A stretch of 60,634 nucleotides of DNA, taken from NCBI GenBank assembly GCA_022925895.1, contig JAKSYS010000367.1, positions 1 through 60,634 of the forward strand. The letters are read 5' to 3'. Made by a program: the position numbers and the translations under genes. Below the pieces are notes generated by a model that made no database searches, was not told the DNA's origin, and was given only the letters and a program-made list of their open reading frames with translations. Numbering within the stretch: the stretch's first letter is position 1; each line of letters opens with the position of its first letter. Positions 9,117 through 60,276 of this stretch are shown one piece after another. Origin of the DNA: Fragilaria crotonensis. Taxonomy: Eukaryota > Bacillariophyta > Fragilariophyceae > Fragilariales > Fragilariaceae.

Positions 9117-9159
9117 CGTGTGGGTCGAGTGTTTTTAATCTGAACACAGCGGCAGCACG
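9117..9159 (+). other. LINE-A 3'-UTR hairpin module
   Basis: Box 1 (CGTGTGGGTCGA, 9117-9128) and box 2 (GCGGCAGCACG, 9149-9159) flank an inverted repeat, GTGTT with AACAC, over a loop of about nine bases. Boxes 1 and 2 recur in LINEs B, C, D, E and H with different but always pairing stems. CGTG of box 1 can also pair with CACG of box 2. A variable tract of about 17 bases and a T-run (9177-9182) end the element. Confidence 0.82.
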
Positions 9160-9612
9160 TTAAATTAGATTTGGGGTTTTTTATTCCAGTGCCAGGTTTG
9201 ACGCTACAAGTAGTAGCCGGTCCGTACAATCTAAAGGTGTCGTGGAATCTTTGTCGTTCATTTCTTGACATCTATTTGTCCATCATGGTATCATGGATCA
9301 TTCGATTTCGCTTCGAGGACCTTTTCACGTGATTGAGTGCAGGGTATAACTTGTCCGTCATGTATCACGTAGTCATACCCTGGTACTGAAAAAAAGTCAT
9401 TTTTTCATTTTTGTAGGGGGTCTTCGGCGAGTAGAAGGATGTGTTTGAAGTTTGAAGACCTTTCAGTAGTCGTACAGTAGTCGTACCTCTGGTATGCGAC
9501 AAAATGTTACAGTATCGTAGTATTGAAATCAGATGCGATTACGGGGTGTATGGAACTTCTGTGTAATTCCTACTTTTGGTTATGAGTACACGATTTAATA
9601 TTTATGAAATAA

Positions 9613-9656
9613 TTTGATCCGCTATCAAATCAGGCCTGATTTGATAGCGGATCAAA
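9613..9656. repeat. 44-bp perfect palindrome
   Basis: Two 22-base arms meet at AGGCCT with no spacer; the left arm is 9613-9634 and the right arm 9635-9656. The match stops exactly at 9612/9657. Two related half-sites (TATCAAAT and AATTTGATA) follow within 60 bases. It could be the fused ends of a small DNA transposon, but no second copy is present here to test that. Confidence 0.9.
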
Positions 9657-10658
9657 AATATCAAATGTCGGGCTGGCGCGACATGCTTGGCGCGGACTTT
9701 TTAATTTGATAAATCGGCCTTAAATCATGCATTTTACCGAAAAAGAGCTGGCCAGGCATTTGCAATTTTTGATCTCCCCCTTTAAACATGCTCGCACACT
9801 GATCAGAAAAAAAGCTCGATACTTGATTTTTTCATCCCACAATCAGTCTGACTAAAGGCATGCAATCTTGTGTAGCGTGTGGTAGATGTTCTACGTAACG
9901 TCAAAACAGTTTTTATTTCCGTACGTCCATTTTCATTCAATTCTGCAATGACAAAATGAGACTTGGAGGCAAACATTCTGAGTGACCGATGACCGACTTT
10001 GTCTTGAAGTATCTGGCATCCTCACTCCTTAAGTCAACTGTGGCAAAATCATCTCTGACCGTTCATTCCAAATCTGTTAAAGAGTCGTGAATTTTTTCAA
10101 TCGCTTGGTATAAATTCTACACGATTTCTGTGTGGAAATTGTCCGTTGGGGTTCCTCTTTCCAATCATTATGTCTTTGTGGATACTTCAAGCTGGTCAAA
10201 TATCCAGCGTGCTTCATCACCATTCAAAGTATTCTGAATTAGATGATCACCTCAGTTTTTTCAAAAGTGAGAAGGGAATGATCTGAAACGATGGGATCAG
10301 AAATCAGACAATCCTCCGTAGACTACTAGCTCCAAATCCGATTAAATGTCATTCAAGTGACGTTTTCGTGACATCATAGGAATCCTTGAAATCGGCTTTG
10401 TAATTCTTGCAAAACGAATTTCAGAACATACATGTGTGTTGCTTTGAACGTTTGCCAAAATTGACGCCAGCCCGGTTGCCACATGTAAGTTTGAAAAGTT
10501 TGAACTGCTCATTTAAATGTTCATTTTTGCCACAACTCATTACTGTTGCTGCTTTTGCTGCTGCTCATTGTACTATGACTGCCATCGCGTTGGTGTTGTT
10601 CCTTATCGTTGTTATTGCATCATTGTTGTTGCGAAGGACTAGCTGACAATCATCTTTG

Positions 10659-10856
10659 ACGAACCGCCGAACCGACACCAGTTGCGACACTGCAACAGCC
10701 ACTACCTGTCAAACATCAGGAGTGGTGGTTGCGCTTGCAATTTTGGTGCCGTGGAGTTTGCGCTGGCGACGAGGAACCGCCGAACCGACACCAGTTGCGA
10801 CGATGCAATAGCCACTACCTGTCATGCATCAGGAGTTCTTGTGGTTGCGCTTGCAC
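10659..10856 (+). repeat. 109-bp tandem repeat, two units
   Basis: The units begin at 10659 and 10768 and share GAACCGCCGAACCGACACC and TGGTTGCGCTTGCA. The second unit is cut short by the 3' tail of LINE-C at 10857. Confidence 0.8.
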
Positions 10857-10867
10857 AAAAAAAACCT

Positions 10868-10884
10868 AATATCATTTTAACGTG
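10868..10884. repeat. TSD of LINE-B, left copy
   Basis: AATATCATTTTAACGTG is repeated at 27349-27365, immediately after the LINE-B T-run. It is part of the LINE-C 3' tail, so LINE-B landed inside that tail. The match is 17 bases, or 18 if a T that merges with the tail is counted. Confidence 0.93.
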
Positions 10885-18390: not shown

Positions 18391-18957
18391 AAGGAACCCG
18401 CGGGCACTGCACGAGCGCAGTTTTCCCAATTGCAGAAGAAAAGTAACGCTATCACCGAGTTCCTATGGTCAACGCCATTGTCGAGGGCAGAAACTTGGTT
18501 GTATTATCATGCCTGTTACCTCCCGTCGATTTGTTATCCATTAACATGTTCTCATTTGACACACAAACAATTAACGTCAGTTCAAAAGAAAGCAATGTCC
18601 ATTATTTTCGCACGATGTGGTTATAATCGGAATACAAAGAAAGAAATTCTCTTTGGACCAGTCGAGTATGGGGGCGCAAACTTCCATCACCTCTACATAA
18701 GACAGGGAACCCAACAGGTGACTTACTTCATGCGACATTGGCGTACAATGACTTCAGTGGGGAAGATGTTCAAATGCGCACTAGCATGGATACAACTTTC
18801 GAGCGGAGTCTCATACCCGATTATGGAGCATGCTAATACAAGCTTACCACACTTGGAAGCAAAATGGTTCACGTCCCTTCGAACATTCTTATCAAGTATT
18901 AGGCAGGGCTGCAATTGGACGACCCGTGTATCCCCCTTTACAACGTCAAGGAGATAG
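18391..18957 (+). pseudogene. LINE-B ORF2: RT thumb/connection
   Basis: Joined with 10885-10954, this continues His-Lys-Thr-Leu-Gly-His-Tyr-Lys into Glu-Pro-Ala-Gly-Thr with only one AAGG copy counted. The block Phe-Leu-Trp-Ser-Thr-Pro-Leu and the Cys-Gly-Tyr-Asn-Arg motif match LINE-A and LINE-E. The frame slips near 18903 at a GGG. Confidence 0.88.
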
Positions 18958-21172
18958 CTACATCATGGATCACATCTTGGAAGCGGGAACATTCACGGCA
19001 TCAGAAATACGACGATTAAATTATTGCAGACTATATCTCCAGGCCGTCACAATTTCGGACATCACAATGATCACAGGAGATGTACTGGATCAGAGTAAAC
19101 TCGCAGGTTATCCTTCACTCCAGAGCAGCAAATCACACTGGATCCCAATAAATCAAGAGCGACCATCGGAGAAGGAATGGACACTTTGGAAGAAGGCAAA
19201 TTTACTGTGGAGCGACACTCGAGGTCATCTCAAGATCCCGCTTCGCAAGTGGCTGAAGGATGTCCATCACCAACGTAACTATCACTTCGCGTATCAATAT
19301 AGAAAGAGTGTCTGGATCCGAGAGCACGGAGGCGGATATCAAGTCCATCGATTAAGGTCCAGTGGTAGGTTGCAAGACAGACAATGGATACAAGAGCGTG
19401 CACAACTGCCACAGCAATCAGTCCCGGTCGAATTATATAATGATGCAGCGGGATCCTGGAAAATACTCAGCCCAACATTCTCCATTGTTACACCTCATAC
19501 AATATCACAGTCGGCAACAGCAACGTTTGATGCATACATCGAGACGCTCGAGTCGTGGGAAATTGATTTACTCCGTCATCTCACGTTGGACATCGATCCC
19601 TATTCTATTTGTTTGGAAGCTCATCAACACTTCAGAGCGGTGAGCGATGGATCCGTGTTGTCAAACGGAAACGCATCCTTCGGGTGGATCTTAAGTAATC
19701 GGAGAGGAGAACGAGTTGCAGAGGGTATGGGACCAGCACGAGGACGGAGAGTACATTCATACCGAGCAGAGGCATGCGGTCTGTTATCTTTTCTACGGTT
19801 CCTTATACGGATCGCCAACTTTACACAGATGCACGAGACATGGCACGGAATCCTCGCAACGGACAGCCAAAGCGTACTGGATACCTTGTTTGGACAAGAT
19901 CGCGATGATAGCAATGAAAATGAGCCTCTAGACCTAGATAACCAATGCGTGGTGTTGGACCCATTATGTCCGGAATGGGATATCTTGATCGAGATTCAGG
20001 CGGCACTACGAGTTTTACCAGGAGTCCGTCTACAATACGTGGAAGGCCATCAAGATCAGAAGAAACCATATCAGTCTCTCGAGCTTCTGGAACAATTGAA
20101 CGTGGACGCTGACAGAATCGCGGAAGAATATCACGAGCTTCTCCAACCGCAACGGCCATATGTACTATTATCTCCGCACGCACGAGCGCACTTAGTGTTT
20201 GAGGATGGGACAGTAACCGCAAGACATGCAGAGTTTATCGAGACCCAGGCAACGGCCGAACCTTTGGTGCAGCATCTCGCAAAGAAACACTCCTGGAGCG
20301 ATGGAGTTACGGAAAATATCAATTGGAAAGCTCACGGGCAGGCACTCAAGCGGAATCGACAGAGACGGTCTCATTTTGTGAAAATGGTCCACGACATTCT
20401 CCCAACAACAAGCTTGCAAAATAAATATGATGGCGGGAAAAGAACATGTCCCCTCTGCCAACACCCGTGTGAAGATAGCGATCATATTCTTCGATGTCAA
20501 CACCCTTCCCGAGTCGAGTGGCGTCGCCAGTTTCTCCACGGAATCTTGGAGTTTTGCAATAAAACACACACTTATCCCCCGATACGGATTCTTCTCATCA
20601 CGACTATGCAGAGTTGGCTAAGCGGCGAAGATAACCCACGGATCGAAAGAGATCAATATCCAGCAGATATGAGCTCAATCATTCGGCAACAAGCCAAAAT
20701 AGGATGGCGACAGATGCTTCAGGGACGATTCTCCAAGGCGTGGAGTGACATTCAGCAGCGGTACCACGAATTAACGTTCCCGACTCAACAATATACTCCC
20801 GACAAATGGCAAGTGGGTTTAATCCAGAAGATCTGGGAACATCGGCACAAAGTCTGGATTTTGCGAAATGAAGATTTACACGGCAGAGATATCAGGAGTC
20901 GACAACAGGCCGAGCGTAAGGAAATCCAACGACAACTGCATGCCATCTACTCCCAGCGACCGATGATGGACCCACGAGTGCAATCCCTGTTACTTGAAGC
21001 ACCAGAGGCACATGATCGATATCCTGTTCAGGTGACAAAGAACTGGATACGAATGCACGCTACAACATTCTCGGAAAGCGTCAAGCGGGTGAAGACCAGA
21101 GCACTACATGGGGTGAGATCTATTCGTTCGTATTTCAATCCTATCCCAGCGGTAGATGCGGAAGCGACATGA
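18830..21172 (+). CDS. LINE-B ORF2 C-terminal half: linker, RNase H, zinc finger, C-terminal domain
   Basis: This 780-codon frame is the best-kept LINE segment of the window; homologous reading starts near 18900. RNase H starts at Val-Ser-Asp-Gly-Ser (about 19640) and continues with Tyr-Arg-Ala-Glu (about 19762), Ala-Thr-Asp-Ser-Gln-Ser (about 19857), Glu-Gly-His-Gln-Asp (about 20042) and Asn-Val-Asp-Ala-Asp (about 20100). The zinc finger is Cys-Pro-Leu-Cys with His and Cys near 20450-20490. The C-terminal domain carries Trp-Ile-Leu-Arg-Asn-Glu-Asp-Leu-His-Gly. It ends Ser-Ile-Arg-Ser-Tyr-Phe plus eleven residues. All four RNase H acids are present. Confidence 0.92.
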   Translation: MLIQAYHTWKQNGSRPFEHSYQVLGRAAIGRPVYPPLQRQGDSYIMDHILEAGTFTASEIRRLNYCRLYLQAVTISDITMITGDVLDQSKLAGYPSLQSSKSHWIPINQERPSEKEWTLWKKANLLWSDTRGHLKIPLRKWLKDVHHQRNYHFAYQYRKSVWIREHGGGYQVHRLRSSGRLQDRQWIQERAQLPQQSVPVELYNDAAGSWKILSPTFSIVTPHTISQSATATFDAYIETLESWEIDLLRHLTLDIDPYSICLEAHQHFRAVSDGSVLSNGNASFGWILSNRRGERVAEGMGPARGRRVHSYRAEACGLLSFLRFLIRIANFTQMHETWHGILATDSQSVLDTLFGQDRDDSNENEPLDLDNQCVVLDPLCPEWDILIEIQAALRVLPGVRLQYVEGHQDQKKPYQSLELLEQLNVDADRIAEEYHELLQPQRPYVLLSPHARAHLVFEDGTVTARHAEFIETQATAEPLVQHLAKKHSWSDGVTENINWKAHGQALKRNRQRRSHFVKMVHDILPTTSLQNKYDGGKRTCPLCQHPCEDSDHILRCQHPSRVEWRRQFLHGILEFCNKTHTYPPIRILLITTMQSWLSGEDNPRIERDQYPADMSSIIRQQAKIGWRQMLQGRFSKAWSDIQQRYHELTFPTQQYTPDKWQVGLIQKIWEHRHKVWILRNEDLHGRDIRSRQQAERKEIQRQLHAIYSQRPMMDPRVQSLLLEAPEAHDRYPVQVTKNWIRMHATTFSESVKRVKTRALHGVRSIRSYFNPIPAVDAEAT

Positions 21173-21250
21173 TCCGACATAGCATAAGTTTATGAACGGT
21201 ACCTGCGACTCATTCAAGGGTCGTGGCTACCCGTGCAAGTCGAGTACTCG

Positions 21251-21394
21251 TGATTTATTGTATGCGTTGTACGGTACACGACTGTACAGTATGCGGTACA
21301 ATAGCTCGATCTCACAACTTGACCTATCCCATGATCTATACCCGTTACTAGCATATCGTTGCACCGTCTCCCTTAGCACGTCTACTTTTACTCA
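21251..21394 (+). repeat. Copia-2 5' LTR, 144 bp
   Basis: It begins TGATTTATTG and ends TTTTACTCA. All 144 bases match the 3' LTR. Confidence 0.95.
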
Positions 21395-22480
21395 GTTTAT
21401 CAGACCCATCGCTCTGGATGATGACGGACGAGGTCATCTGACGATTTCGATGGCAATGTACATGCTCTTAGTGAATAGGGCTGCTCCCTTCGCTCGCGTC
21501 GAGTGACTCGTCAGCTGTGCCCAGGCATGCGTTGAACTGCCATAAAAATTACCCGTTGAAACCAGTGAACCATAACATGCGAGATGGTGCATGTGGCCTG
21601 AATCGGAATGAGGTGATTCGCTGATCCCCATTCAATTTGTCGAACCGATCTCGACAACCGATTGATGGATTGATCACATCCATCCTTCGATCCGTACCAT
21701 CGCGGATGAAAGATTCATACATCGCCCGTTAGGCAAGAGTATATATTATACAGTACGAATGATTATACTCGCACTGGCGTAATACGTGATCTCCGTTGAA
21801 CGCATCCAACAGGGATTGACCCCGGAACTTCAGGGAGGGTCCTTGATCGCTCTTTCGGTTCTCTCCCGGTTTTGAGTTCTACGCCGACATGGATATCCTG
21901 CAATGCGCACAGCCTTTTGCCGTATCGGGTTCTACGAACAGGCTGCACAAGCCCTCGTCGAGGACCAGGGCACCAACTCCTATAGGAGATCAGACTTCTG
22001 TCTGATGACAAGATCGAAAGACGCCCCGGAGGAACGATTCCTCCACCCAACGGGCCGCCGTTGGACCCGCGCAGGTCCAGAACCGTTCTACCTTCTCCGT
22101 CAGGCACCAGGTGCCTCGGAGTTGTACAGTGGTCATCGCAAACGTTACGCTCGACAACATTTGCAGCATTTGCGAATATCGTGAGTACGAATCCACCACA
22201 AGTATCCTGATGACTTGCCCGTCATCAACTTGAAGGACTGGCCGAAAAGGATAGAAGCCATCGGCAAATGCCCGCCCACGCTTGGTGGTTGAAGAATATA
22301 AAATCCTGCTAGCGTACACCATTTGTGAGACCGAGGCGATTGCGCCAGATGAGGAGAACTTCCCAACAAGTGCAAGACGAAATGATAGCGACGGCAGATC
22401 CTGTCTACCTTGTCAATCGTAAGAAGGTAGGGTACAGGGTCTTGCTCGCGTATCACTCGTAAAGGCCCTGTCTGGACGAA
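21395..22480 (+). other. Copia-2 leader region
   Basis: The primer-site-like sequence GTTTATCAGACCC is at 21395-21407. The rest has no recognised coding content; short frames on both strands look accidental. Confidence 0.5.
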
Positions 22481-22499
22481 TGACAAACCAGCGCGGAAA

Positions 22500-22830
22500 C
22501 TGGAGATGGTAGGATGGCCTATTAAAGCTTCTACGGCCATTACTTGGGCCCGCCGCATGGCCACGATGGCCGAAGACAAGCTGGAGTATACAGTCTACCA
22601 CAGCGAGCAGCGTCGCTCGAATTTCGACAAATACGTGCACAAGCAGCAGCACTTGGTGTTGGAAGGCTTGATAGAGCACGGACATGTGGGTATTGATCCA
22701 CATTCGAAGGCTCGACACTTGTCTTGTTGATGGTATCAAAACCGACAAGTTTGATGCCGTCAAACTCGCATTACATCTGTGGAAATGTTGCGTTCCGACT
22801 TTGAAGAAGCGTGCGTAACTTTATCCCTGG
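22500..22830 (+). pseudogene. gag: Copia-2 Gag remnant
   Basis: Around 22560-22730 the translation reads like the Gag core of another diatom copia group, with Tyr-Val-His-Lys-Gln-Gln-His, Leu-Glu-Gly-Leu and Gly-Ile-Asp blocks. After a stop the other frames give Asp-Gly-Ile-Lys-Thr-Asp-Lys-Phe-Asp-Ala (about 22733-22765). The identification rests on my memory of these blocks and is moderate. Confidence 0.6.
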
Positions 22831-23339
22831 TCTACATTTGCCAGACTTCGAAGAAAGGATCTTGCTTCCAAGCGCCTCAAGTGTGGCATGGCGCGAGTGA
22901 TAGTGTGATAACGAAGCGCAAAGAGAGCGACGTGCCGTCAACCGCTAGATGTCCCAATCGGCGATGCAACTGAAGAAGACCTCGGTTGCAGTAATGACAG
23001 CACTCTCTTTTCACAGGACTCCGGCATGTCAGCCGATGAGCCTTGCAACGTGCAAACAATGGCACCAGCAATCGCATGAACGCGGCGCTCACGCGCCAGA
23101 AGAAAGTCTCTAACGAAGAGCCCAAGAAGTGATGCTGTGCACGCTTGGCCGCCATTCGAACGTTGGGATTGCTCGACAAGTCGGTTGCCCATGAATCTGC
23201 ATCCGACCACTGTGCCATAGTAGGCAGTAATTGTTTAGTAGTCCGTGACTACGATCGTCAGATAAAACGTGTCGGGTTACAACACATCAGGTCCTGTCGC
23301 CACGGATCTTTAAACTGTTTCGGCGGCGCTCGCGTTTGA

Positions 23340-23640
23340 TGATTTCGTAAGCGGTGAAACAGTGATTCGTCTCATGGTTCATCAGGCGATACATATCCCT
23401 GATATCGCACCGAATGATGTTATTCTTGTGAACAACATTCCTCGTTTCTTAACCGAAAATGGCAATGACCTGACACACTCGTTGCTGGTGATTCCCACCG
23501 CTGACGACACCTCCGCCCCGTACGTGTCTCCGCTCTCGGTGCGCGGCGTCACCTTGACCTTTCGGACGCGACAGTCGCCCATTGAAGCATATGGGACGCT
23601 CCTCATGTTACGCTCACGGGCGAAGATCTCCCGTGGGACC
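23340..23640 (+). pseudogene. pol: Copia-2 protease-region remnant
   Basis: The frame from 23362 reads Val-His-Gln-Ala-Ile-His-Ile-Pro and then Pro-Arg-Phe-Leu-Thr-Glu-Asn and Leu-Ser-Val-Arg-Gly-Val-Thr. These blocks follow the protease active site in some diatom copia Pol proteins. The active site itself is not visible. Confidence 0.6.
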
Positions 23641-23692
23641 CCTATGACAACGTTTTCACCGACGAGGAAGCTGCCTCACGAAATACCTGTTG

Positions 23693-23842
23693 GAAACAGG
23701 GGACCGAATCGGAGCACCGCCACCGTCCAGGCGACTACTATGCTCGGTTTCCAACATGTAATTCGCTCGAAACAGGGGACCGAATCGGGGCACCGCCACC
23801 ATCCAGGCGACTACTATTCTCGGTTTCTAACATGCATTCGCT
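23693..23842 (+). repeat. 76-bp tandem duplication inside Copia-2
   Basis: Two units start at 23693 and 23769 with GAAACAGGGGACCGAATCGG and differ at a few positions. The duplication sits between the protease and integrase remnants. Confidence 0.88.
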
Positions 23843-24114
23843 CGCAAGCGAATTACAGAATTATAACGAGGACTCGATGCGACGCGCGACTGCATCGCTT
23901 CGGTCGTTGCTCGCCGGAAAGCCATTTGGTCCTCAACGCTAGTTGGCAAGGGATTGGGGAATTAACATGCAAACTGCGAAGCGTATGCTGTACCATATAC
24001 ATGACGACTCGTCAATGTGCTGGCGTAGTACTACGCACCACCGTACTGCATCCGATGCTGTCACGTCGGCTCTGCACTAACGTCTATCAGCTACGGTACC
24101 TGGTACCGTTGTCA

Positions 24115-24390
24115 TTCACATCGCCTGATTGCTTCTTCACTGACACTCTGATATTGAATACTACTAATTCGCGAAGGAATTGTAAATATGTACAAGTATT
24201 CGCAACGTCCGATGGCTGTGTCGTGCGTACTGTGTACACCATGATGAAAACGGACCACGGAGCCACACACGCTGTGGTCAAAACCTGCGGAGGCCGCAAT
24301 CAGACAATGGAAGAAGGGTGTCGGGAGGCAAACGATTCGATCCGGTACGCCCAAGCGCCTTTGGGATGATTGCCTGGAATGAGAGGCGTA
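24115..24390 (+). pseudogene. pol: Copia-2 integrase remnant with internal deletion
   Basis: Near 24125 Phe-Phe-Thr-Asp-Thr-Leu with Gln-Val-Phe-Ala-Thr-Ser-Asp-Gly gives the first catalytic Asp region. Near 24293-24385 another frame gives Ala-Ile-Arg-x-x-Lys-Lys-Gly and Gly-Thr-Pro-Lys-Arg-Leu-Trp-Asp-Asp-Cys-Leu. Only about 60 bases lie between, too few for the second Asp region, so the core is deleted. Confidence 0.72.
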
Positions 24391-25139
24391 TGTTAGATTT
24401 CTAACCACGCACGACATCTGTAAACTTGACGGGTGAGGCCGTTTCCAGCGGCTGAACTGCTGTCGTACCACCATTTGCGCTGTTCGAGTGCATCGCTGGT
24501 GTTGGGCCACGATTTGGGCCCTGATATCCAGAAAGGTCCCGCCCGCTATGACAAGGAAAGTCCTTACTAAGCGGAATGGCCAAACGGTTTATTGTTCGAC
24601 TGTTCGCTTGTTGACGCCAGACAAATTGGCGGACGAGTCGATGAAGAAACAAAGTGCGAGGACTTTACGGAGAAGGCAAACTCGATTCTAGGGACGAATA
24701 CAAATGTGAGGATTTTGCGACAAACCCAGGATTTGTTGACCTAGAGACTCTGCCTAACATTCTCGAATTACGTCGATGATGATGACGGCGAAGTGTCTTG
24801 AGTTCCTGACGCCGATGATGAGCCTGGTGCTGACACGTTCAATCAGTCTATTAGGGCCGAGGTGACTCTGCCAAACGACGATAAGATATTGAGTGCAAAG
24901 GTTCAAAGCTGACAGGTTGCACTTGCTTGATGGAAGTCCTGTTTGAAGGGCGAACCACAATCTGATCTTGCTTGGACACTCGAACTTTTAATGTTGAGTT
25001 CGCCGACGGCCAAACGGCAGAACTATCGGCCAACGTGATGATGCAGAAGACGTATACAATGTGCAACACAGAGGGCAATCGATTTCTCCTGCAGAAGGGG
25101 ATTGTTCATCATGAAGAAGACGGTTCTGCGGTCTAACTT

Positions 25140-25350
25140 GCAGATATGCTCGTCCAGCACGGATTGAATCGCCATCATCGCGAAACGACAAAGGGTTGGC
25201 AACTCTATGTCGAATGGAACAAGGAAGCATTTGTTCATGAGAACAACTCGCGGACTTGGAAGAGTCCAATCCCGTGGAGTTTGCTGACTATGCAATCGCT
25301 CAAGGAATCAAGAGCGAACCTGCTTCGCGTGGTGGGTCCCATTCACAATT
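25140..25350 (+). pseudogene. pol: Copia-2 chromodomain-like remnant
   Basis: Thr-Thr-Lys-Gly-Trp-Gln-Leu-Tyr-Val-Glu-Trp (about 25180-25220), then in another frame Glu-Glu-Ser-Asn-Pro-Val-Glu-Phe-Ala-Asp-Tyr (about 25259-25290). This matches the Copia-1 and -3 segment between integrase and RT. Confidence 0.7.
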
Positions 25351-25853
25351 AAAGCGGCGCGATCGGATAATTGCGACTATAAATAACCGATACTACAAGC
25401 GGGTGCATAAATTTGGACTCGAAGTTCCAAAACATATGAGGATTGCACCCGCGTCGACCTCGAAAACGGTAACATTTTATGGCGGTATGCCTTTCGGACT
25501 GAGATGACTAAGGTGCGAATAGCCTTTCAGGTAATGAGAGGTGACTCGAACCTCCTCCATTTTTGGGAAGACCCACTGCCATCTTGTTTTGATATTCAGA
25601 TGGACGTCGAACGGAAAGCTTGCTTGGTGGCCGGCGGCCACGTGACGAAATCGCAGCCTACGTATGTGGCATACGCAAGCGTTCTTTCAAACTATTGGCT
25701 GATCTCAACGACTTAGAGGTGACAGTTGCCAACATTGAAAATGATTACCTGACGGCACCAGAGAGTGAGAAGATCCGGTGTCGACTCGGTCTGTTATTTG
25801 AGGCCAATGCTGAAATAGCGGCAGCAATTGTTCGGGCACTATACAGTCTTTGA
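25350..25853 (+). pseudogene. pol: Copia-2 RT remnant
   Basis: Pieces in several frames give Arg-Asp-Arg-Ile-Ile and His-Lys-Phe-Gly (about 25360-25420), Gln-Met-Asp-Val-Glu-Arg-Lys-Ala-Cys-Leu-Val-Ala-Gly-Gly-His (about 25600-25640) and Asp-Leu-Glu-Val with an Asn-Asp-Tyr-Leu-Thr-Ala-Pro block (about 25710-25760). I cannot find Tyr-Val-Asp-Asp, so the catalytic palm is missing or erased. Confidence 0.72.
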
Positions 25854-27289: not shown

Positions 27290-27348
27290 CTCGTACAGTC
27301 GAGTACCGCGGCAGCACGTTAAGTAGATTTTCGGTTTTTTTTTTTTTT

Positions 27349-42952: not shown

Positions 42953-42962
42953 GAGCAAGCAG

Positions 42963-43724
42963 TTGAACTATTTCCAAGGGTTAATCGGGATATTGCGGTG
43001 GATCTGTGAGCTCGGGAGGATTGATATCCTAATGCCTGTTTCAATATTGTCTCGGTACCTCGTATCCGCACGACAAGGGCATCTCGAGCAGGCCTTCCAT
43101 ATCTTCGCATACCTGAAGACACACTCGCGTTCAACGATGGTTTTTGATGATACGGTGCCGACTTATAGGAGTAAACGATTCGTCAAGTGCGACTGGTCCG
43201 AGTTTTACCCAGATGCCGCCGAAGCCATACCAACCAACATGCCTCAACCGAGAGGGAAAGAGGTATGTATGACCTGCTTTGTTGATGCGGATCATGCTGG
43301 ATGCAGGGAAACACGTCGGTCACATTCAGGAATCATTATCTTTGTCAATCGTGCGCCGATTTTATGGTTTTCCAAGAGGCAGAACACTGTTGAAGCCTCA
43401 ACTTATGGATCGGAACTACTGGCGATGCGGATTGCAATCGAAATGATCGAAGGGTTGAGATATAAGCTGCGAATGATGGGCGTGCCTATCCCTGACGAGT
43501 GTGCAGTCTTCTGTGACAACTCAGCGGTGGTTACGAATTCACGGCCGGAGTCGACCCTGAAGAAAAAGCACGCCGCAATCAACTTTCATAGAGTCCGTGA
43601 AGCAATAGCTGCAGGAACCATCAAGATTGCTAAGGAGGATACGCGTTCAAACCTCGCGGATATCCTGACGAAGTTGATGCCTGGTCCTAAAATGAAGGAG
43701 TTATTAGCGAACCTCCTATGGTAA
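42963..43724 (+). CDS. pol: Copia-3 Pol: connection and RNase H
   Basis: A 253-codon frame with Tyr-Phe-Gln-Gly-Leu-Ile-Gly, Leu-Arg-Trp-Ile-Cys-Glu-Leu-Gly-Arg-Ile-Asp, then RNase H with Phe-Val-Asp-Ala-Asp-His-Ala-Gly (about 43281), Glu-Ala-Ser-Thr-Tyr (about 43394) and Cys-Asp-Asn-Ser. It ends Asn-Leu-Leu-Trp. Unlike Copia-1 the whole stretch is in one frame. Confidence 0.92.
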   Translation: MNYFQGLIGILRWICELGRIDILMPVSILSRYLVSARQGHLEQAFHIFAYLKTHSRSTMVFDDTVPTYRSKRFVKCDWSEFYPDAAEAIPTNMPQPRGKEVCMTCFVDADHAGCRETRRSHSGIIIFVNRAPILWFSKRQNTVEASTYGSELLAMRIAIEMIEGLRYKLRMMGVPIPDECAVFCDNSAVVTNSRPESTLKKKHAAINFHRVREAIAAGTIKIAKEDTRSNLADILTKLMPGPKMKELLANLLW

Positions 43725-43911
43725 TCGCAGCATGGGGACGTGACCCCGGGGACGTTGCTACGGGGACGCGGATAGATACTGTCCAAACAGTAGATCACTG
43801 CCAGGTTAATGGTTAAGGCTAGAAGTGGTCGGGGCCTCTGTCACAAGGATTTATAACGCCGGTTAATATGGGATGTTACGCCTCCGAATAACGTGGTTAT
43901 ATCGAAGTCGC

Positions 43912-43917
43912 GGGGAC
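43912..43917 (+). other. Copia-3 polypurine tract
   Basis: GGGGAC core abutting the 3' LTR, as in Copia-1 and -2. Confidence 0.75.
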
Positions 43918-44105
43918 TGTTAATATCACATGTGGCGTATTGGTATATGGGCATCGGTACGACAATATGATTATTGGACAGTAGTACGAACGACAGTATA
44001 AACTACGGAGGTCAGGAAAGGTGCACACATTCCAGTGATTGGTCGGTTTAACTATAGATATCTTTGACATGCTTATCAATATTTGATCATCACGTGGAAT
44101 TAACA
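43918..44105 (+). repeat. Copia-3 3' LTR, 188 bp
   Basis: Identical to 37727-37914; followed by the GTGG TSD copy and the resumed LINE-E 3' UTR. Confidence 0.95.
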
Positions 44106-44149
44106 GTGGGGATGACAGCCACCATGAATTAAATAAACTCGAGCACCAT

Positions 44150-44743
44150 TTACGGCACGGTATTCGGATTAGGCAACGGGCTGAAATAGGTACGAATCGA
44201 TCTCATACCTTCCAATGCCATTCGACGAACCTTGCGTACATTTGCTTTAACGATGGGAACATGGATTCGCAACCAATTGGTGGTGACCTGAAGTGACTGT
44301 GCCGAATGAGCCTCCGGATTTTGAAGCAGTAAAGACCGAACTTTTGGATCCATAAAGGGCTTGTTGTTATAGATCTCCTGTAGTTGCCGATGGACATCTC
44401 GTCGCAACTGAGATTGACGTTTTTGAGCGTCGCGTCCATGTAAGTCCTGGTTTCGTTCTGCCCAGAGAATGAACCATTGCTCCCACAAAACGTTAATCAA
44501 TCCTATCAACCATTGCTCAGGTGTCTTCTTGTGAGTTGGCGATTTGGCGGAGTCAGCGACTGTGATGATGCGATCTGAATAGAGACCTTGTACTCGTCTC
44601 CAATCCGTCACAAAACGTCCAAGCATAATATGTTTCCAGCCCACCTGGTGTTGTCTGCGAATGATCGAATGTACATCTGTCGGATACTGATCCGGGATTG
44701 AGGAGTGGTTGATCATCGCCGGATAACCAACGCTCAAGGCCAT
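44150..44743 (-). pseudogene. LINE-E ORF2 C-terminal domain
   Basis: From about 44690 this 197-codon frame carries Val-Gly-Trp, a Trp-Ala-Glu-Arg-Asn-Gln-Asp-Leu-His-Gly block and ends Ser-Ile-Arg-Thr-Tyr-Phe plus ten residues. It belongs after the segment 44553-45395, from which it is separated by one slip. Confidence 0.87.
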
Positions 44744-45395
44744 CGACCAGAAGTCTCGTCAACTGTGGGTAAGTTCGTGTTTCACAACAATAGGTTTGAA
44801 TTCTCTGAATACATCCGCTCCGCCATGCTGCACGGGAAGGATGAGGACATCTCATTATATGGTCTCTGTCTTCTTCTTGACTTTCGCACAGAGGACACGT
44901 GCGATTTCCGCCATCGAATCTGTTAAAACGGCCTGTCGTTGGGAGCACATCATGAACGAACTTGATCAAGTGAGTCCGCTTATTTTTCAATCGCTTCAGA
45001 AGGGTGCCGTGAGGTGACCAGTCGATAATGTCGAAGACCGGGATGGTCCAGGATTTCCTTAACCTGAGGTGCTCTATCAAGGGTTGACCCGTCGCTTCCA
45101 TCTCTATCACTTCGGAATACTTTGACGTAACCGTTCCATCTCTTAATACCAGATGAGCCCCAACAGACGGAGACATAATTGCGAATGGTGTTCGAGACGA
45201 GAAAAGTTCCTGGTAGTCGCTTGCGATTCTGTCTGCATCCACGTTCAGTTGTGCAAGCAGGGAAAGGTTCTCGTAGGAAGACTCCTCGTCCTGGTGACCC
45301 TTGATATATTCCAGTCGCACTCCCGGCAGTCGTTTTAATGACTGTTGAATCTCGATTAAAATATCCCACTCGGGAATCAACACGTCCAACACCAC
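44553..45395 (-). pseudogene. LINE-E ORF2: end of RNase H and zinc finger
   Basis: The frame contains Lys-Gly-His-Gln-Asp (about 45300) and Asn-Val-Asp-Ala-Asp (about 45240) of RNase H. A zinc finger of Cys-Pro-Leu-Cys, His and Cys lies near 44845-44895. Homology leaves the frame near 44690. Confidence 0.87.
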
Positions 45396-46180
45396 ACGAG
45401 AAAATCTAAATCAATGGGGACATTGTGATTTTCGTCAAGGGATGTCTCTCCCGACAAGGTGTCGAGTAAACTCTGACTATCAGTTGCGACGATGCCCGTC
45501 CATCGCTCGTGCATTTGACAGAACTCTCTTATACGAATCAGGAAGCGAAGCGCCGACAACATCCCAGTTGCTTCCGCTCTATACGAATGAAGCGATCTGC
45601 CACGAACTGGACCCATACCTTGAGCCATCCGTTCCCCTTCTTTGTTACTCATCATCCATCCAAAAGATGCCATCGACGGTGGTTGTGCAGACCCATCACT
45701 CACGACCCGAAGGTTTACTTGAGCTGACCAACAAATCGTGTAAGCATCGGCGTGAAGAGTATGATGCTGAAGTAGATCCTTCTCCCAAGGTTCTAAAGTA
45801 TCAACGTACATATCAAATGTCGCTACCATAGAAGGCGGTATTGGAATGGGATATCGATATTGTCTCGATGGTCCTTGCACCAAACAAATTCCATTGGTCG
45901 TTTCCATAATTTCGGCTGGCGTGACATCTGGAGGAATACTTAGAAATCCACGTTCTCTCACGAGATCCGAATCTGAAAGTAACAAGGTAGTCCTTCGGAG
46001 ACGGTATTCCATATAGCGATCGTGATCGAAACCCCGAATCCACAGTCGTGAGCGATTTTTATAAGCCACATATCGATTCCGCAGGAGATGCGCGATGGGA
46101 AGAGCCAGTTCTGCAAAGGTACTTTGAGGCGACCTCCGGGGAAGCTCCACAACAGATTTGCTCTCTTCCAAACTTTCCAC
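45377..46180 (-). pseudogene. LINE-E ORF2: linker and RNase H
   Basis: The middle of the linker is followed by Val-Ser-Asp-Gly-Ser (about 45690), Tyr-Arg-Ala-Glu (about 45578) and Ala-Thr-Asp-Ser-Gln-Ser (about 45483). It ends in a slip near 45390; the domain finishes in the previous entry. Confidence 0.87.
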
Positions 46181-46286
46181 GCTTTAGAGGACGGGCGTTC
46201 TTGGTGGACTTTCAGCCATGTAGTTTGACTACTTAACAATGACGGGTGTCCATTAAGTTTGCAGGGATCTAAGGTGCTTCCTTCTG
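45958..46286 (-). pseudogene. LINE-E ORF2: linker segment left of LINE-F
   Basis: From the insertion point it reads Asp-Pro-Cys-Lys-Leu-Asn-Gly-His-Pro-Ser-Leu, then Gln-Glu-Arg-Pro-Ser and Trp-Lys-Arg-Ala-Asn-Leu-Leu-Trp. It directly continues 48118-48292 when LINE-F and one TSD copy are discounted. Confidence 0.82.
46272..46286. repeat. TSD of LINE-F, left copy
   Basis: AGGTGCTTCCTTCTG is repeated at 48103-48117. In LINE-E it encodes part of the linker. Confidence 0.92.
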
Positions 46287-47918
46287 GACACTCATGATAC
46301 AGCGACACGAACCATTCTTTCTGGCATAAAACAATTGACAAGGAACAAAAGGCGACTGCTCGCTCATATCAATATTGCGGCTGACGAGAATGTACTGTGG
46401 AGAGAATGTCAACGAAAGCAGACCCTAACGATTGCATCAGATGGCGGTTTGAAAGGACGTCACGGTACGTTTGGGTGGACTTTGTCGACGGCAAAAAATA
46501 AAATCCTCTGTGAAGGAGCGGGTCCTGTGGACGGACCCATTGATACTGCAAATTCCACGAGATGTGAACTCGGCGGATATACATCGGCCCTGATCTTGAT
46601 TTCTATTTTACAACAATTCTGGGGGGGGAAACGGCACAAATGCAAGTTCCGATGGCTTACGGACAGCCAGTCTGCAATCAATAACGTCCTGAAAGGAAGC
46701 TCGACTCAACTATCCAAACGCCGATAACCAGACAATCCAGACTTCATGAGTATCATCCGAGCAGAAACGTCGATTATCCGTCGGAAAATTACACCAGTTT
46801 GGATTAAAGGACACCAATCTGAGAAACACGAACGAAGTACACATAGTCGCGATGTGGAAAGGAATCGAAGGGCGGATCATCTCGCAACATGGTACAGGGA
46901 GCAGCATACTCATCGACAATCAGTGGAGCGAACAGACCATACTATGGAAGCAAGGATCACTATATCACTGAATGGAGTGCGGCTCGTTTCTCAGGTGGAA
47001 TCGTGTATTCGCTTCCATATCAATGGCTATCATTTGCGCAACTACATACAGTCGAAATATCGGTGGTCCAACAAGACGTGGGACAGTATCGACGTCGAGG
47101 CACTCGGCCGTTTTCAGCGAACGTTGTCTCCCGCGGCTCAAGTGGCACAAGTGAAGTTTATGCATGATCAGTGGCATACTGGGAGGGTAAGATATCGAAA
47201 TGCGAGAATAAAAGATCTCAAATTGCGATTATGTCCATGTTGTCAGATCGAAGATGAGACTTCCATACATGTTCTTCAATGTCGCATGAATTCAGAGCAT
47301 CACAATGCGCTAAAAAATTTCCGGAGAATTATGTCTCCATCGGAACCGCATCCGGTTTTTCATTTGATAAAGGAGGGTGTTGTTTCCTGGATAAATGGCG
47401 ATAACCAGTATACTCCTACGTTCGAGCAGCTTCCAACCAAATTTCATGACCGGATCCGGGCAGCACTTCACGATCAGAGCACCATCGGATGGGACCAGGC
47501 AATTAAAGGATACCTCAGCATGGAATGGAGAATTCTCGCAAATGAGAGTATGTATGGCGCGGGACAAGCTCAAAACGAGCAAGGGTTCAAACGGATACAT
47601 GTCATTCTCAAAGCGCTGCATAAACTTACTCAAGACAAGTGGAAGGCACGAAATAAAATGTTACATGAATCCAAGGATGAGGCGATGCAGCATATTCGAG
47701 ACATGGAGTTAGCAGAGATCAATGAACTATACAGTCACCCAGAGAGACTTCGTGCTGGAGATCGCCATTATTGTGAGCAACCACTTTCGGTGATACTAAA
47801 GAAAACACCAGCATCGCGTCGACGTTGGTTGAGGTTTATGAGACAATCGCAGGCTAGGGGCAGACATGGATGGAAAACGGCAAACGCTATTGACAGATTT
47901 TTTCAGAGCTTCTGGTAA
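46287..47918 (+). pseudogene. LINE-F ORF2: RNase H, zinc finger, C-terminal domain
   Basis: One frame covers 46287-47918 with a single TAA at 46725-46727. RNase H shows Ala-Ser-Asp-Gly-Gly (about 46437), Thr-Arg-Cys-Glu (about 46560), Leu-Thr-Asp-Ser-Gln-Ser (about 46659) and Lys-Gly-His-Gln (about 46806). The zinc finger is Cys-Pro-Cys-Cys, His, Cys near 47233-47285. The C-terminus Ala-Ile-Asp-Arg-Phe-Phe lies five residues before the stop. Apart from that one stop this copy is clean. Confidence 0.88.
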
Positions 47919-48102
47919 CGGTACAGCGACAACAGTACGAGGGACCACTGTCGAGAACACCTAAGGTGAATGGAACAGTAGGATTAGTTTTAGATGAGTC
48001 GTCGCCTCCCTGCAATACGGGAAGGCTACGACGGGGTACACACACTGGTTTTGTCCAAAGACTGGTGACGGTGAAAACCCTATAATTTGGTTTATTATTA
48101 TT
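46287..48102 (+). mobile_element. LINE-F, 5'-truncated LINE of a second family
   Basis: The insertion lies in LINE-E in the opposite orientation, with a 15-bp TSD. It starts shortly before RNase H and ends in TTTATTATTATTA. It lacks the shared hairpin boxes and the T-run, and its protein is only distantly like the other LINEs, so it is another family. Confidence 0.92.
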
Positions 48103-48292
48103 AGGTGCTTCCTTCTGTTGTCGATAGGTCTGAAACAGTGACTGCCTGCAAATATAACCGACAATAGTTGATGTGCCTGATCTCGGCACACGAAAAGGAA
48201 CGCGACTCGAGAACATGATCCATGATATACGAATCACCTTGCCTTTGTAATGCTGGGATACAAGGATCATCCAATTCGATACCCGCCTGCAA
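48101..48292 (-). pseudogene. LINE-E ORF2: linker segment right of LINE-F
   Basis: It reads Gln-Arg-Gln-Gly-Asp-Ser-Tyr-Ile-Met-Asp-His, then Asn-Tyr-Cys-Arg-Leu-Tyr-Leu, as in LINE-B, and stops at the insertion in Glu-Gly-Ser-Thr. Confidence 0.85.
48103..48117. repeat. TSD of LINE-F, right copy
   Basis: AGGTGCTTCCTTCTG follows the (TTA)n tail of LINE-F and matches 46272-46286. Confidence 0.92.
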
Positions 48293-48316
48293 GCTTGCCA
48301 GATACTCTCTAACTGA

Positions 48317-48991
48317 CTATAACCACTTGGATTCAAGATGCGGCAGCTCAGGTAACGTATTCATCAGGATAGAGTATGACACGCCTGCGTTGAGCTGTGC
48401 CCAAGCAATAGCACACTTCAACATTCTCCCAACTTCCGATTTCGATCTCCAATGTCGTACGAAATATTCAATTTGTTGACAACCTTGTTTATGATACAAA
48501 TGATGGAAATTTGCACCTCCATACTCTATCGGACCATACAAAATTTCTTTTTTCGTATTCCGATTATACCCACATCTCGCAGTGATAATCGCCATTGCTC
48601 GTCGTTGAATTTTTTCCAACTGGGCTTTGGTAAGATGAGAACATGTGAGAGGATACGAGATTGAAGGTAAGTAGCATGCATTATAGAACAGGACAGTCTC
48701 AGACCGAGAGAGGGGAGTAGACCAAAGGAACTTTGTGACATCATAGCTCTTCTGATATAACCGTCGGAACTGTTCTAACTGAGTTCCAGCAGGTTCCTTA
48801 AAATGTCCGAGTGTTTTGTGTGCCGTATGAGGAGGGAGATACTGGAGCGATTGGGAGCGCCCCGTGTATGGATCTGTTACCTTGAGTGTTTGATACTCTT
48901 TAGGACACGCGAAAAGGACTGGAGCACCATGGACAGTGAACTTCCACGACATCGCGTGGTACGAGCACTTTTGAAGCTCTAACGCACCGCC
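48317..48991 (-). pseudogene. LINE-E ORF2: RT thumb/connection, 5' end of the element
   Basis: The frame is open from the 5' truncation at 48991 with Gly-Gly-Ala-Leu-Glu-Leu. It includes Ala-His-Lys-Thr-Leu-Gly-His-Phe-Lys and Cys-Gly-Tyr-Asn-Arg. It matches LINE-A 6070-6740. The RT catalytic core is absent, so this copy could never have been autonomous. Confidence 0.88.
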
Positions 48992-57445: not shown

Positions 57446-57469
57446 TTCAAGTTCCACGAACTAGAGAAG

Positions 57470-57895
57470 ATGGTAAAGATGCATCAGACAGAAATCGAAA
57501 AATCGTCGTTAATCACTTACAAAAACAATCGACAGCAATTGTACTCAGTTGACGACAGGTTATTAAAACAGGAGAAGCAATTTAAAGACCTCGAAGAAAA
57601 AATGGTTAGATCACTGGATAGCCAATTGGCTTTGGGAACAAATATGCTACAAATGAGGGAACAACTAGTACATCAACAATTGGATAAACTCATGAATGCT
57701 GTCACAAATATTGCAGTGCAAACCGCTGTTAACACGACCTTAAGACAACATCCAACATACGCAACCGAATTGGAGGCTATTGATCTTCAATCGAAACAGT
57801 TGACATCAACATCCTCACAAACAAGTAACAGAAGTCAGCAAGTCCCAAAACAACATTCATTCACAAAGAAAAAAGTTAAGATCAATCTCGGATGA
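57470..57895 (+). pseudogene. LINE-G ORF1 coiled coil
   Basis: The 141-codon frame contains Leu-Lys-Gln-Glu-Lys-Gln-Phe, then Met-Leu-Gln-Met-Arg-Glu-Gln-Leu in heptad spacing, then a Ser/Thr-rich tail with a Lys patch. It corresponds to LINE-A 2270-2830. Confidence 0.7.
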
Positions 57896-58285
57896 AGCGT
57901 TCTTCTCACCAAACTCCTCCGAAGTCTCCTTGATGCGATCAGACAACGGGTCAAAAGACGCTACTGGCTCACAGCCATCCTCTACCACAGAAGACTCATG
58001 TCTTTTGATTGAACATTTAGTAGAAGTAATACTCTGGAGTCGCGATACAAAGAAAAAGCTCCAGGTAGTGGGCCGGAGCCATGAGTGACGTAACGATAAA
58101 CAACGGTTGAACTTCAGCAGAAGCAACCCTCAAAAGAACTATACACGGTACTCAAAAGCATTCCCAGCAGGAGATAACGACTTGGACTACGAGACTGATA
58201 AGTCACAAAACAGCGCAAAAGATAAAACTGGAGCTAGATAGGAGGTCAAGGTCATAACTTTCAATGGGGAAACATCCGCCTCCCA

Positions 58286-59300
58286 ATGTCACATCTGCTG
58301 CTACGTCCTCAAAGGCGACCGGGACAAAAAGTCTGGGAGAAACTACTAGATCCAAATCCTACGAAGGGCTTTGGAGACAGCATTCAGGATAAACCTCCGG
58401 ACTCAATAAGGGTCTACTTTCAAAATGTAAAGGGATTGACGTATTCAACTGGTTTGGAGGATTATTATTATTATGTGCAGAGTTTGACATTGCTCCACAT
58501 TGATATTGCAGGTCTAATGGAAACCAACACAGTGTGGCAGCACACACACTTACAAGCAGACTATCGAAGACAGATTTGAAAGCGTTATCGCCAAAGCAGG
58601 GTAACATACGGCTTTCCTAAATTTGACGTTGACAAGTGCTTGGAAAATACCACTTATCAGGAAGGAGGAAATCTTACATCGAGCAGTTTGGAGGAGTGCA
58701 AGGATCCCACAGGGCTCGGCAGGTGGAGTGGTTTAATCTTCGGAGGGAAAGATGGTTTCCAAATGACAATTATTATGGCATACCAGACATGTTCCGGTAA
58801 CATTTGGACTTCTCAAATGGGCAGCACATACAGCAGAGAGTACATTTTCTTTCGGAACCAAGGCATGCAATCTCCAAACCCTCGTCGCCTACTTCTACAA
58901 CACATGGAGATACAAATCAGACAGATTCAGCAATTAGGAAGTACAATCCTTCTTATTCTTGACGCTAACGCAGATCTAAGCAACAAGCACATTGAGGACA
59001 TGATTTTTTCATGTGAATTAGATGATCTACACCAATTAATTCCACCTCAATCAACATACATTGGATCGGCAAATCAAAGAATCGATTACCTGCTGTTTGA
59101 TGCTGCAGAATCAAAGAAGCAGTTAAACAATCAGGAGCACTGGCATATTCAGACGGTCCGCAATCCGATCACCGCGGTCTTTTCGTTGATGTTAACATTC
59201 CAGAGCTTCAAAGCCTGCTTAAGGTCCCACCTCTAGCAAATACAGCCAATCGGTTCTTGTCCACTGGAAATCCAGAATTTGTTTATGCATATATCAAAAG
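58286..59300 (+). pseudogene. LINE-G ORF2: endonuclease
   Basis: Arg-Val-Tyr-Phe-Gln-Asn-Val-Lys-Gly-Leu (about 58410) and Gly-Leu-Met-Glu-Thr-Asn (about 58512; catalytic Glu) lie in frame 58286-58579. Ile-Leu-Asp-Ala-Asn-Ala-Asp (about 58958) and a Ser-Asp-His-Arg-Gly-Leu-Phe motif (about 59165, other frame) supply the later catalytic residues. A Tyr repeat (four TAT/TAC codons, 58465) is an oddity of this copy. Confidence 0.78.
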
Positions 59301-60176
59301 AATTAATCAATGTTATGCAGATCATCGGATGAAGGAAAGAATTGAGGGACCACTATACAAAAGAATCAAAATAAAATGACACATGAGCAGATTCTATCAA
59401 GTCGTCTGACAAGTTGAGACTCGGATCAAGGCCGAGCTATGGAGATGGCAGAGCACAAACAACGAGTACCACCAGCGAAAGAAATATGCATGGTCACCAG
59501 ACCTTCGAAACGCAGCGATTCTACGTCGGTATTGGAAATAACGCTTGCGCGAGGTAACAGAAAACCTTAGTTGTCAGACCACTTTCTACCGATGGCAACA
59601 GCAGATTCAAGAATGGGACCCAAACTTCATTCTACCATATCTATTGATACCTTTACACCAGGAAGAAATAAGGATACAACTTACAAAGCAGGCTTCAAAA
59701 AGCATTTTGAAAAGTTCAAACTCGAGCAACTGAAACTTGCCAACAATGATTCGAACAACTGATGACTGAATATTGTCTTAAGATGTTAATTCTCCAACAT
59801 CAAATGAGTCCCTTTGCAAGGTCAAGGTACTCCAGCGCACTACAGACAGTGAGATCAGCTAGGCTACCTTCGAACAGCTGAGAAATGAGGTGAAACCAAT
59901 GAAGCTATCAGCTCTATCTCAACAGGAAGTCCCACGTCGGCGGACAGATCCAACCAACACAGCCGGTGACAAGGTACAAGACATTCTACACAGCAATGAT
60001 CAGGAGGATCTACTTTGGGATACTGTCAAAGATCAAAACAACATTGAAAAACATCTGATAACATACAATCGAGAAGCCTTCAGAGCTGCAGCCAAATCCC
60101 CCTGCGGGCATGATGTAATCTACAACGCACTAGATAATGAAGATATCTAACTCGATGAGTTAGATTCGGAGCCTTG
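59301..60176 (+). pseudogene. LINE-G ORF2: linker and RT N-terminal remnant
   Basis: Short frames show an Arg-Arg-Tyr-Trp block (about 59525) and, at 59890-60150, Ser-Pro-Cys-Gly-His-Asp-Val-Ile, which resembles an early RT block of diatom LINEs. The RT catalytic core is absent. Confidence 0.6.
60162..60176. repeat. TSD of LINE-H, left copy
   Basis: AGATTCGGAGCCTTG is repeated with one mismatch at 60277-60291. Confidence 0.85.
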
Positions 60177-60276
60177 GACGCTGATTCAAATGCAAAGCGT
60201 CAGTATCTAGTCGTGCGAGTCGATCTCTTCGTAGTGGGAGACGCGGCAACACGTTAAATCGAATTTAGGTTTTTTT
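60177..60276 (+). mobile_element. LINE-H, 100-bp LINE 3'-end insertion
   Basis: The insertion holds only a 5' hairpin (GACGCT/AGCGTC, 60177-60201), the 3' module (60212-60253) and the T-run (60270-60276). A 15-bp TSD flanks it. It has no coding sequence, so it is either an extremely 5'-truncated LINE copy or a SINE using the LINE 3' end. Confidence 0.87.
60212..60253 (+). other. LINE-H 3' hairpin module
   Basis: Box 1 is CGTGCGAGTCGA. Box 2 is GCGGCAACACG, with A for G at one place. The stem is TCTC/GAGA, unlike the others, and it pairs. Confidence 0.8.

Follow-up and report, generated by a model that had tools for sequence, protein, structure and literature searches.

A covarying two-hairpin module at the 3' ends of LINEs in the diatom Fragilaria crotonensis, a probable template handle

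The stretch of DNA described here (the window) comprises 60,634 nucleotides of contig JAKSYS010000367.1 from the diatom Fragilaria crotonensis (assembly GCA_022925895.1). It holds several copies of long interspersed nuclear elements (LINEs), some of them nested in others, whose parts are listed in Table 1. Six copies, LINE-A to LINE-E and LINE-H, bear two short conserved boxes around a stem of variable sequence. The original prediction, made from the letters of the window, located these six box pairs and proposed that selection maintains the pairing between them; both boxes are present without mismatch at six of six places, and the module to which they belong is a genuine RNA structure, kept by selection at the 3' ends of LINEs.

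The single hairpin of the original prediction turns out to be half of a larger unit. The flanking sequence contains a second covarying hairpin, H1, of about 11–13 bp, which lies directly 5' of the box hairpin, H2, with no spacer between them. H2 is one continuous hairpin made up of (i) P1, CGTGY/RCACG, followed by an internal loop, (ii) P2, GTCG/CGGC, followed by a further internal loop, and (iii) the variable P3 with its loop. The complementarity of CGTG and CACG had been read as an outer helix or a pseudoknot: as the outer helix it stands, and in both the RNAalifold fold and the pairing check its two strands nest within H2, so that a pseudoknot is not needed and was rejected. The variable stems pair as described, except that the 5' arm in LINE-E reads GTATCCCA and not GTACCCA. 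RNAalifold finds both hairpins unaided in the modules with these boxes (class 1) and in a second class introduced below. Downstream of H2 there is usually a TTAAATTAGATTTGGG-like tail of 15–18 nt and then a T-run, up to the target-site duplication. T-runs of at least 5 follow 62 of 65 modules, in 61 of the 65 at 11–23 nt past the module, with a mean length of 9; at random window places the figure is 1.4%. Among the three modules without one is LINE-C, whose tail was interrupted by the LINE-B insertion, so that its remainder with T8 is now 16.5 kb distant.

Across the 62.1-Mb genome the strict pattern (box 1 - N5..30 - box 2) has 164 copies, 90 on the forward and 74 on the reverse strand, and the reversed control pattern has none. 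The 100 class-1 copies listed (contigs up to C398) comprise 62 distinct sequences. With the gap set to 12–24, the class-1 pattern turns up 35 times in 257 Gb of prokaryote contigs and never in viral contigs. The prokaryote matches score 12.3–29.4 bits with the covariance model, 32 of the 35 on the box hairpin only; 97 aligned modules from the F. crotonensis genome score 35.6–97.3 bits, and the halves of the split LINE-B module 29.3 and 25.0 bits. A reading as a known RNA was dropped, as Rfam has no match in the window at gathering cut-offs and none in L061, L070, L092 or L183 at E 0.1.

Pairing is kept well beyond chance. In a MAFFT alignment of 51 distinct modules, standard pairs fill 91.5% of pair cells, compared with 78.8% in shuffled and 29–50% in slid alignments, and double-changed cells number 204 versus 64 shuffled. 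For 93 distinct modules (alignment A6) the values are 92.8% versus 77.6% shuffled and 24–51% slid, with 392 double-changed cells versus 118.7. Because shuffles ignore relatedness, a tree-based covariation test was built, resembling R-scape but with our own code: it uses a G statistic with average-product correction, and its null alignments replay the substitutions of each branch of a FastTree tree at random positions. A set of 58 sequences yields six significant pairs out of 5,886, all in the structure, and a structure-free alignment five, likewise all in the structure. With 73 sequences and the model alignment, 9 of 5,886 pairs are significant, eight of them in the structure, which answers the call of the original prediction for a test of this kind; the structure-free alignment gives six of seven. 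The two off-structure pairs, one per alignment, are both inside the H1 apical region. Rows at least 93% alike were left out of both sets, as was L056, and the truncated L066 (like L056) was left out of the smaller one. G-U cells outnumber A-C cells in every helix (175 v 19 in H1; 94 v 2 in P1/P2, where one invariant U-G pair is part of the excess; a mild 26 v 15 in P3), which identifies the sense RNA as the folding strand. Together with the modules found through ORF2 described next, these results bear out the proposed selection on RNA structure.

Since the pattern search fixes the boxes, an approach from the protein side was added: the genome was searched with the C-terminal 386 aa of one second open reading frame (ORF2), and 107 of 736 candidates were scored. 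Among the matches listed (contigs up to C398), 56 reach residue 372 or beyond. In 28 of the 56 a strict module follows 170–219 nt downstream on the same strand; on the opposite strand there is a single strict module within 1 kb of those 56 ends. The remaining 28 include six with a module by the model, the split copy LINE-B, the unfetched C245 and 20 more that were fetched, in which the module scores at least 35.6 bits in 15, is broken in two, is missing in two and would lie past the contig end in one (C249). The module is thus present at 50 of 54 evaluable ORF2 ends, and its predicted place at LINE 3' ends holds, both by the fixed distance to ORF2 and by the duplications just beyond the tail. 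Alignment of the modules anchored on ORF2 and its reverse transcriptase (RT) gives 28 distinct rows, which include a broken module and the module of a non-autonomous neighbour (L120), with 91.7% of cells paired and double changes in 21 of 27 pairs, among them a P1 change from G-C to A-U. The strict boxes are missing from most of these modules, yet the pairing is kept; the set leans towards structure because it was found with the model. Across 27 elements, whose ORF2 ends are 23 to 92% identical, tail distance tracks ORF2 distance (Mantel r 0.594, 0 of 5000 permutations), and even at ORF2 identities below 30% (21 of 351 pairs) the tails continue to fit the model. The module therefore does not define one LINE family, as had been proposed, but is common to LINEs with ORF2 ends down to 23% identity.

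The elements themselves have the marks of LINEs, an APE-type endonuclease and a reverse transcriptase in one ORF2, and 5' truncation with target-site duplications of variable length (12–20 bp). The full-length L061 spans 9.3 kb between duplications, with frames of 476 and 498 aa followed by an ORF2 of 1,978 aa. Exo_endo_phos is above cut-off in L061, L062 and L069; RVT_1 stays below the Pfam cut-off in the frames of the window, L061 and L062 (8e-6 to 3e-4) and is above it in other module-bearing copies of the genome, such as C5. RVT_3 and zf-RVT matches are weak and below cut-off only, phmmer finds no match to ORF2 in PDB, and an AlphaFold2 model of the RT region has a mean predicted local distance difference test score (pLDDT) of 34.9. 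Eight long duplications of 14–20 bp adjoin T-run ends at loci most of which were read with only ~100 nt upstream, and 20 loci with 1.5 kb upstream show seven exact duplications (12–18 bp) and one with a mismatch. Of 16 exact duplications, 14 have T as their first letter (an exception is L111, with A); low-complexity L095 was dropped from this count, and the imperfect L100 and LINE-H are outside it. Such a start fits a primer that would end in A and pair with terminal U's. Some insertions contain little beyond H1 and H2: L033, L006 and LINE-H in class 1 and L183 in class 2, LINE-H being a 98-nt insertion (60177–60274) between imperfect 17-bp duplications. L061 has 12 internal runs of at least five T, which speaks against polymerase III termination.

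A second class of modules repeats the layout with other boxes. It was recognised in L088, a divergent LINE without a model match, and in the non-autonomous L070 (plus strand), which has the boxes of L088 around a different stem. The pattern drawn from the two, GGGTACAC - N12..32 - GGTGANAACCC, has 112 copies in the genome, and its control pattern has none there. In 59 distinct sequences from the copies listed, 86% of P3 cells are paired versus 53.5% when shuffled (maximum 63.9%). From 18 copies with H1, RNAalifold finds H1 and a three-part H2 unaided, with 91.8% of cells paired versus 74.6% shuffled and with P1 and P2 invariant; the H2-only copies L184, L187, L192, L193 and L199 were left out before this alignment (A8). 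A strict class-2 module lies 54–147 nt downstream of 21 of 52 class-2 ORF2 ends, a set in which C233 and the short fragment C398, both without a listed module, are counted. None of the 52 has a strict class-2 module on the other strand, and none of the 21 has a listed class-1 module within 400 nt. Among 20 class-2 places fetched, L184, L187, L193 and L199 are H2-only insertions with the left duplication (15–18 bp) 0–4 nt from H2, and L183 is an H1+H2 insertion with a 14-bp duplication. The class-2 copies read often end in (TTA)n, (TA)n or TTTTG and not in a plain U-run. In the window module with changed boxes, P2 passes from CAC/GTG to CGC/GCG, a compensatory change, and one P1 pair is lost (by eye).

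The module also ends elements without an ORF2. An ORF2 match is absent from nine and weak in one of 20 module-upstream regions of 1.5 kb; some regions without a match resemble truncated LINEs or insertions beside other DNA. L092, L105 and L100 are whole elements of ~0.8–1.0 kb with duplications of 13 bp (exact), 12 bp (exact) and 14 bp (one mismatch), and a search with the body finds 13 places, 11 of which end in the module, C408 being truncated and C427 interrupted by a LINE. Occurrence apart from LINE 3' ends had been named beforehand as telling against the original prediction. The module does occur at such ends, but because they belong to insertions with duplications they rather support recognition of the tail. 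Ten elements with a fetched 3' part (L092, L093, L100, L105, L115–L118, L120, L070) carry the ten-codon block FFPHYSHPPY or a near form of it; over nine of them (L117 left out), variable columns number 1 at the first codon position, 1 at the second and 10 at the third. The block lies near the end of frames of 200 (L105) and 261 aa (L092) with TVQ-type repeats; these frames have no Pfam match above cut-off, and 91 chosen codons of L092/L105 are under weak constraint (proportions of synonymous and nonsynonymous differences, pS 0.47 and pN 0.33). ARAGORN finds no tRNA in L092, L093, L100, L105, L115 and L118, the last two being without a 5' head; the scan did not extend to other types of polymerase III promoter.

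Bodies that share this coding block carry five tail types, four class-1 clades and class 2 (L070). The kinship of the bodies rests on BLAST identity of at least 73% for three tail types and, for the others, on the shared block, with the 5' head in addition for the delta type. On the tail tree, 13 non-autonomous against 57 autonomous rows need 5 changes; with all 97 rows there are 6 changes, 4 of them forced by strongly supported branches. The L115 tail is 84% identical to that of the autonomous LINE L128 (next at most 61% among those compared), and the L023-type tail 81–86% identical to one autonomous group, L016/L017/L020/L036. Among 56 rows, no autonomous LINE stands out clearly as the partner of the alpha type (73–79%, with ties) or of the delta type (68%).

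At their other end, LINEs and non-autonomous elements (L066, L067, L113, L092, L093, L100, L105) have a common 5' head, AGAATTTT...TCTACG (or CCTACG); in L066 and L113 this head forms a hairpin whose paired letters differ. At L098 (C78:74734-76234) an MCM-helicase-like frame, read from its translation, ends ~80 nt before a class-1 module. It matches no other place beyond 55 bases, so that gene capture was rejected, and is probably a host gene beside the insertion. The 108-kb contig C880 looks organelle-like: RVT_1 matches are numerous there, and one of them reads like an intron-type reverse transcriptase. The genome also includes a contig that bears a red-type RuBisCO gene, as expected of a diatom; its closest PDB matches are the diatom enzymes 7yk5, 5n9z, 5mz2 and 5oya.

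Table 1. Modules, LINE parts and associated features in the window (a position counts from the first letter)
Feature	Positions	Strand	Remarks
LINE-A ORF2 pieces	3051..8939	+	frames broken
LINE-A H1	9084..9116	+	absent from the original prediction
LINE-A H2	9117..9159	+	boxes 1 and 2 with variable P3; module 94.4 bits
LINE-A 3' tail	9160..9182	+	TTAAATTAGATTTGGGG and T6 run
LINE-C tail remainder	10857..10866	-	GG and T8; cut off from module by LINE-B; read by eye
LINE-B target-site duplication, left copy	10867..10884		18 bp, in LINE-C tail
LINE-B ORF2 pieces	18391..21013	+	short piece of same ORF2 also starts at 10891
LINE-B H1	21198..21231	+	
LINE-B H2, left part	21232..21250	+	
LTR element splitting LINE-B module	21251..27289		identical 144-bp LTRs 21251-21394, 27146-27289; 4-bp duplication CTCG
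LINE-B H2, right part	27290..27318	+	opens with duplicated CTCG
LINE-B 3' tail and T-run	27319..27347	+	
LINE-B target-site duplication, right copy	27348..27365		
LINE-C H2	27362..27403	-	
LINE-C H1	27404..27436	-	
LINE-C ORF2 C-terminal piece	27589..28263	-	
Second class-2 module	30951..31055	+	boxes changed; 47.5 bits
LINE-D	32483..34406	-	5'-truncated; 17-bp duplications 32466-32482, 34407-34423
LINE-D H2	32511..32552	-	
LINE-D H1	32553..32586	-	
LINE-E with nested insertions	37637..48991	-	20-bp duplications 37617-37636, 48992-49011
LINE-E H2	37662..37705	-	
LINE-E H1	37706..37739	-	5' arm largely broken
Class-2 LINE ORF2 C-terminal reading frame	46746..47915	+	
Class-2 module	47982..48098	+	H2 48034-48080; 83.6 bits
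LINE-H H1	60177..60211	+	outermost pairs lost by truncation
LINE-H H2	60212..60253	+	

The copies in the window are nested in several ways. LINE-B (10867–27365) sits tail to tail in the LINE-C tail, and its left end matches the ORF2 of L068; the ORF2 piece near that end implies that other DNA is nested between ~10.96 and 18.39 kb. Its module is split as predicted, by an element with long terminal repeats (LTRs) that lies within H2 and, to judge by its two identical LTRs, is probably a recent insertion. LINE-D lies within the apparent 5' head (34424 and below, minus strand) of a non-autonomous element whose 3' end was not found in the window. The LINE-E span includes a Copia-type reverse transcriptase (RVT_2, 50 bits) at 41511–42632 and, between its ORF2 pieces and in the opposite orientation, a class-2 LINE (46282–48103), so that one LINE group is nested in the other.

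Taken together, the analysis points to the module as probably a 3'-terminal handle on the template RNA, through which the LINE reverse transcriptase would choose what to copy, in the manner of stringent LINEs. The conserved 3'-terminal stem-loop shows compensatory changes, and non-autonomous partners bear the same 3' tail; in two of the four class-1 types an autonomous tail is a near match. From the structure, its covariation, its position, the duplications and the shared tails we infer protein binding and priming. The LINE RNA would end in H1, H2, the tail and a U-run, in that order, and the LINE protein would bind the folded tail. The endonuclease would nick the target to leave a primer with a terminal A, and reverse transcription would start where this primer pairs with the terminal U's. 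The conserved boxes may carry the shared contacts, with H1 and P3 needing only to pair; the second LINE group uses the same architecture with the box set GGGTACAC / GGTGANAACCC, and non-autonomous elements would travel by bearing one or another LINE-type tail.

Several observations weigh against a template handle. Two ORF2 ends (L129, L141) are without a module and at two others (L130, L131) it is broken (18.9 bits), as is much of the 5' arm of H1 in LINE-E. At 31 of the 52 class-2 ORF2 ends, judged by pattern search alone and not on fetched sequence, the strict class-2 boxes are missing. Of the four class-1 tails borne by non-autonomous elements, only two have a clear autonomous partner. P1 and P2 are nearly invariant and hence show little covariation of their own, most of their pairs varying too little for the tree-based test. 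The U-run, finally, may be encoded, added or due to slippage.

The strongest alternative makes the module an element of 3'-end formation or RNA stability, with the reverse transcriptase merely using whatever RNA ends there. It would lead one to expect what 61 of 65 modules show, hairpins that give way to a terminal T-run, and such an element would equally be common to non-autonomous elements. It is nonetheless unlikely, given that the tails diverge with ORF2, that two non-autonomous tail types (L115 and the L023 type, though not alpha or delta) each track one autonomous group, and that class-2 copies often end in something other than a plain U-run. Inverted repeats would also fold as DNA, but action as a cruciform target, insulator or integration signal is highly improbable beside the sense-strand excess of G-U over A-C, strong in H1 and P1/P2, and the finding that modules are the ends of insertions and not their targets. 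Mere inheritance, with a small number of source elements whose hairpins arose by chance and were copied often without selection, would account for the near-identical copies within subfamilies, but is scarcely credible when the tree-based null is exceeded, two box classes have the same fold and tails still fit the model at the lowest ORF2 identities.

Beyond the template handle itself, an exchangeable template code can be put forward tentatively, as a possibility that we hold somewhat less likely than its opposite. One ancestral two-hairpin architecture would have given rise to at least two box sets for two LINE groups, and the protein-coding non-autonomous family with the FFPHYSHPPY block would repeatedly swap tails, thereby changing the LINE that mobilises it. 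The H2 hairpin and its tail (~60–70 nt) might alone be a sufficient template, synthesis of complementary DNA tending to stop at the H2 5' edge. To our knowledge, the choice of RNA by a LINE protein has been directly shown for few elements. Here a single genome offers 164 and 112 strict copies, two box classes and many tail subfamilies beside their own ORF2s; the variety of tails, the body family with five of them and the natural minimal templates make code-like recognition testable by tail swaps, and point to a short RNA for trial in target-primed insertion tools.

Among known systems, the trypanosome pair ingi/RIME has a non-autonomous partner with the short 5' head and the 3' end of its LINE. 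The F. crotonensis elements likewise have 5' head and 3' end in common with their partners, but ingi/RIME is one partner pair, whereas here one body family bears several tails. In stringent LINEs of the L2 clade (eel UnaL2, zebrafish ZfL2-1 and ZfL2-2), a 3' stem-loop common to the LINE and its partner short interspersed nuclear elements (SINEs) is recognised by ORF2 (PMC4176376), and UnaL2 ends in microsatellite-like TGTAA repeats (PMC3747384). A 3'-terminal stem-loop common to LINE and non-autonomous partner is found here too; in place of a stem-loop with a microsatellite-like end (PMC3747384) there are two adjacent hairpins with conserved boxes and, in class 1, a T-run, and the binding demonstrated in the L2 clade (PMC4176376) is here predicted from sequence. 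In monocots, LINE1-1_ZM with ZmSINE2 and ZmSINE3 has a 3' hairpin confirmed by compensatory changes, with varying stem letters (PMC3747384). The LINE/non-autonomous pairing and a 3' hairpin that keeps its pairing while its letters vary are alike in the two lineages; the monocot L1 hairpin, however, is one stem of ~50 nt with a conserved CGAG flank and UCU loop (PMC3747384), unlike the two hairpins here. Of 93 class-1 modules, 23 have TCT in the loop and one has CGAG on the 3' side of the stem; in class 2 the counts are 1 of 59 and 0 of 59. Among diatoms, an RTE-like non-LTR family is reported from Thalassiosira pseudonana (PMC2806351), and the titles and abstract openings listed by our searches of open-access PubMed Central literature mention no module of this kind in diatoms or in stramenopiles at large. 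A stringent LINE tail with partners is thus already known from fish L2 and maize L1; within that literature, what is new is the bipartite layout, the two box sets and the presence of several tails on one body.

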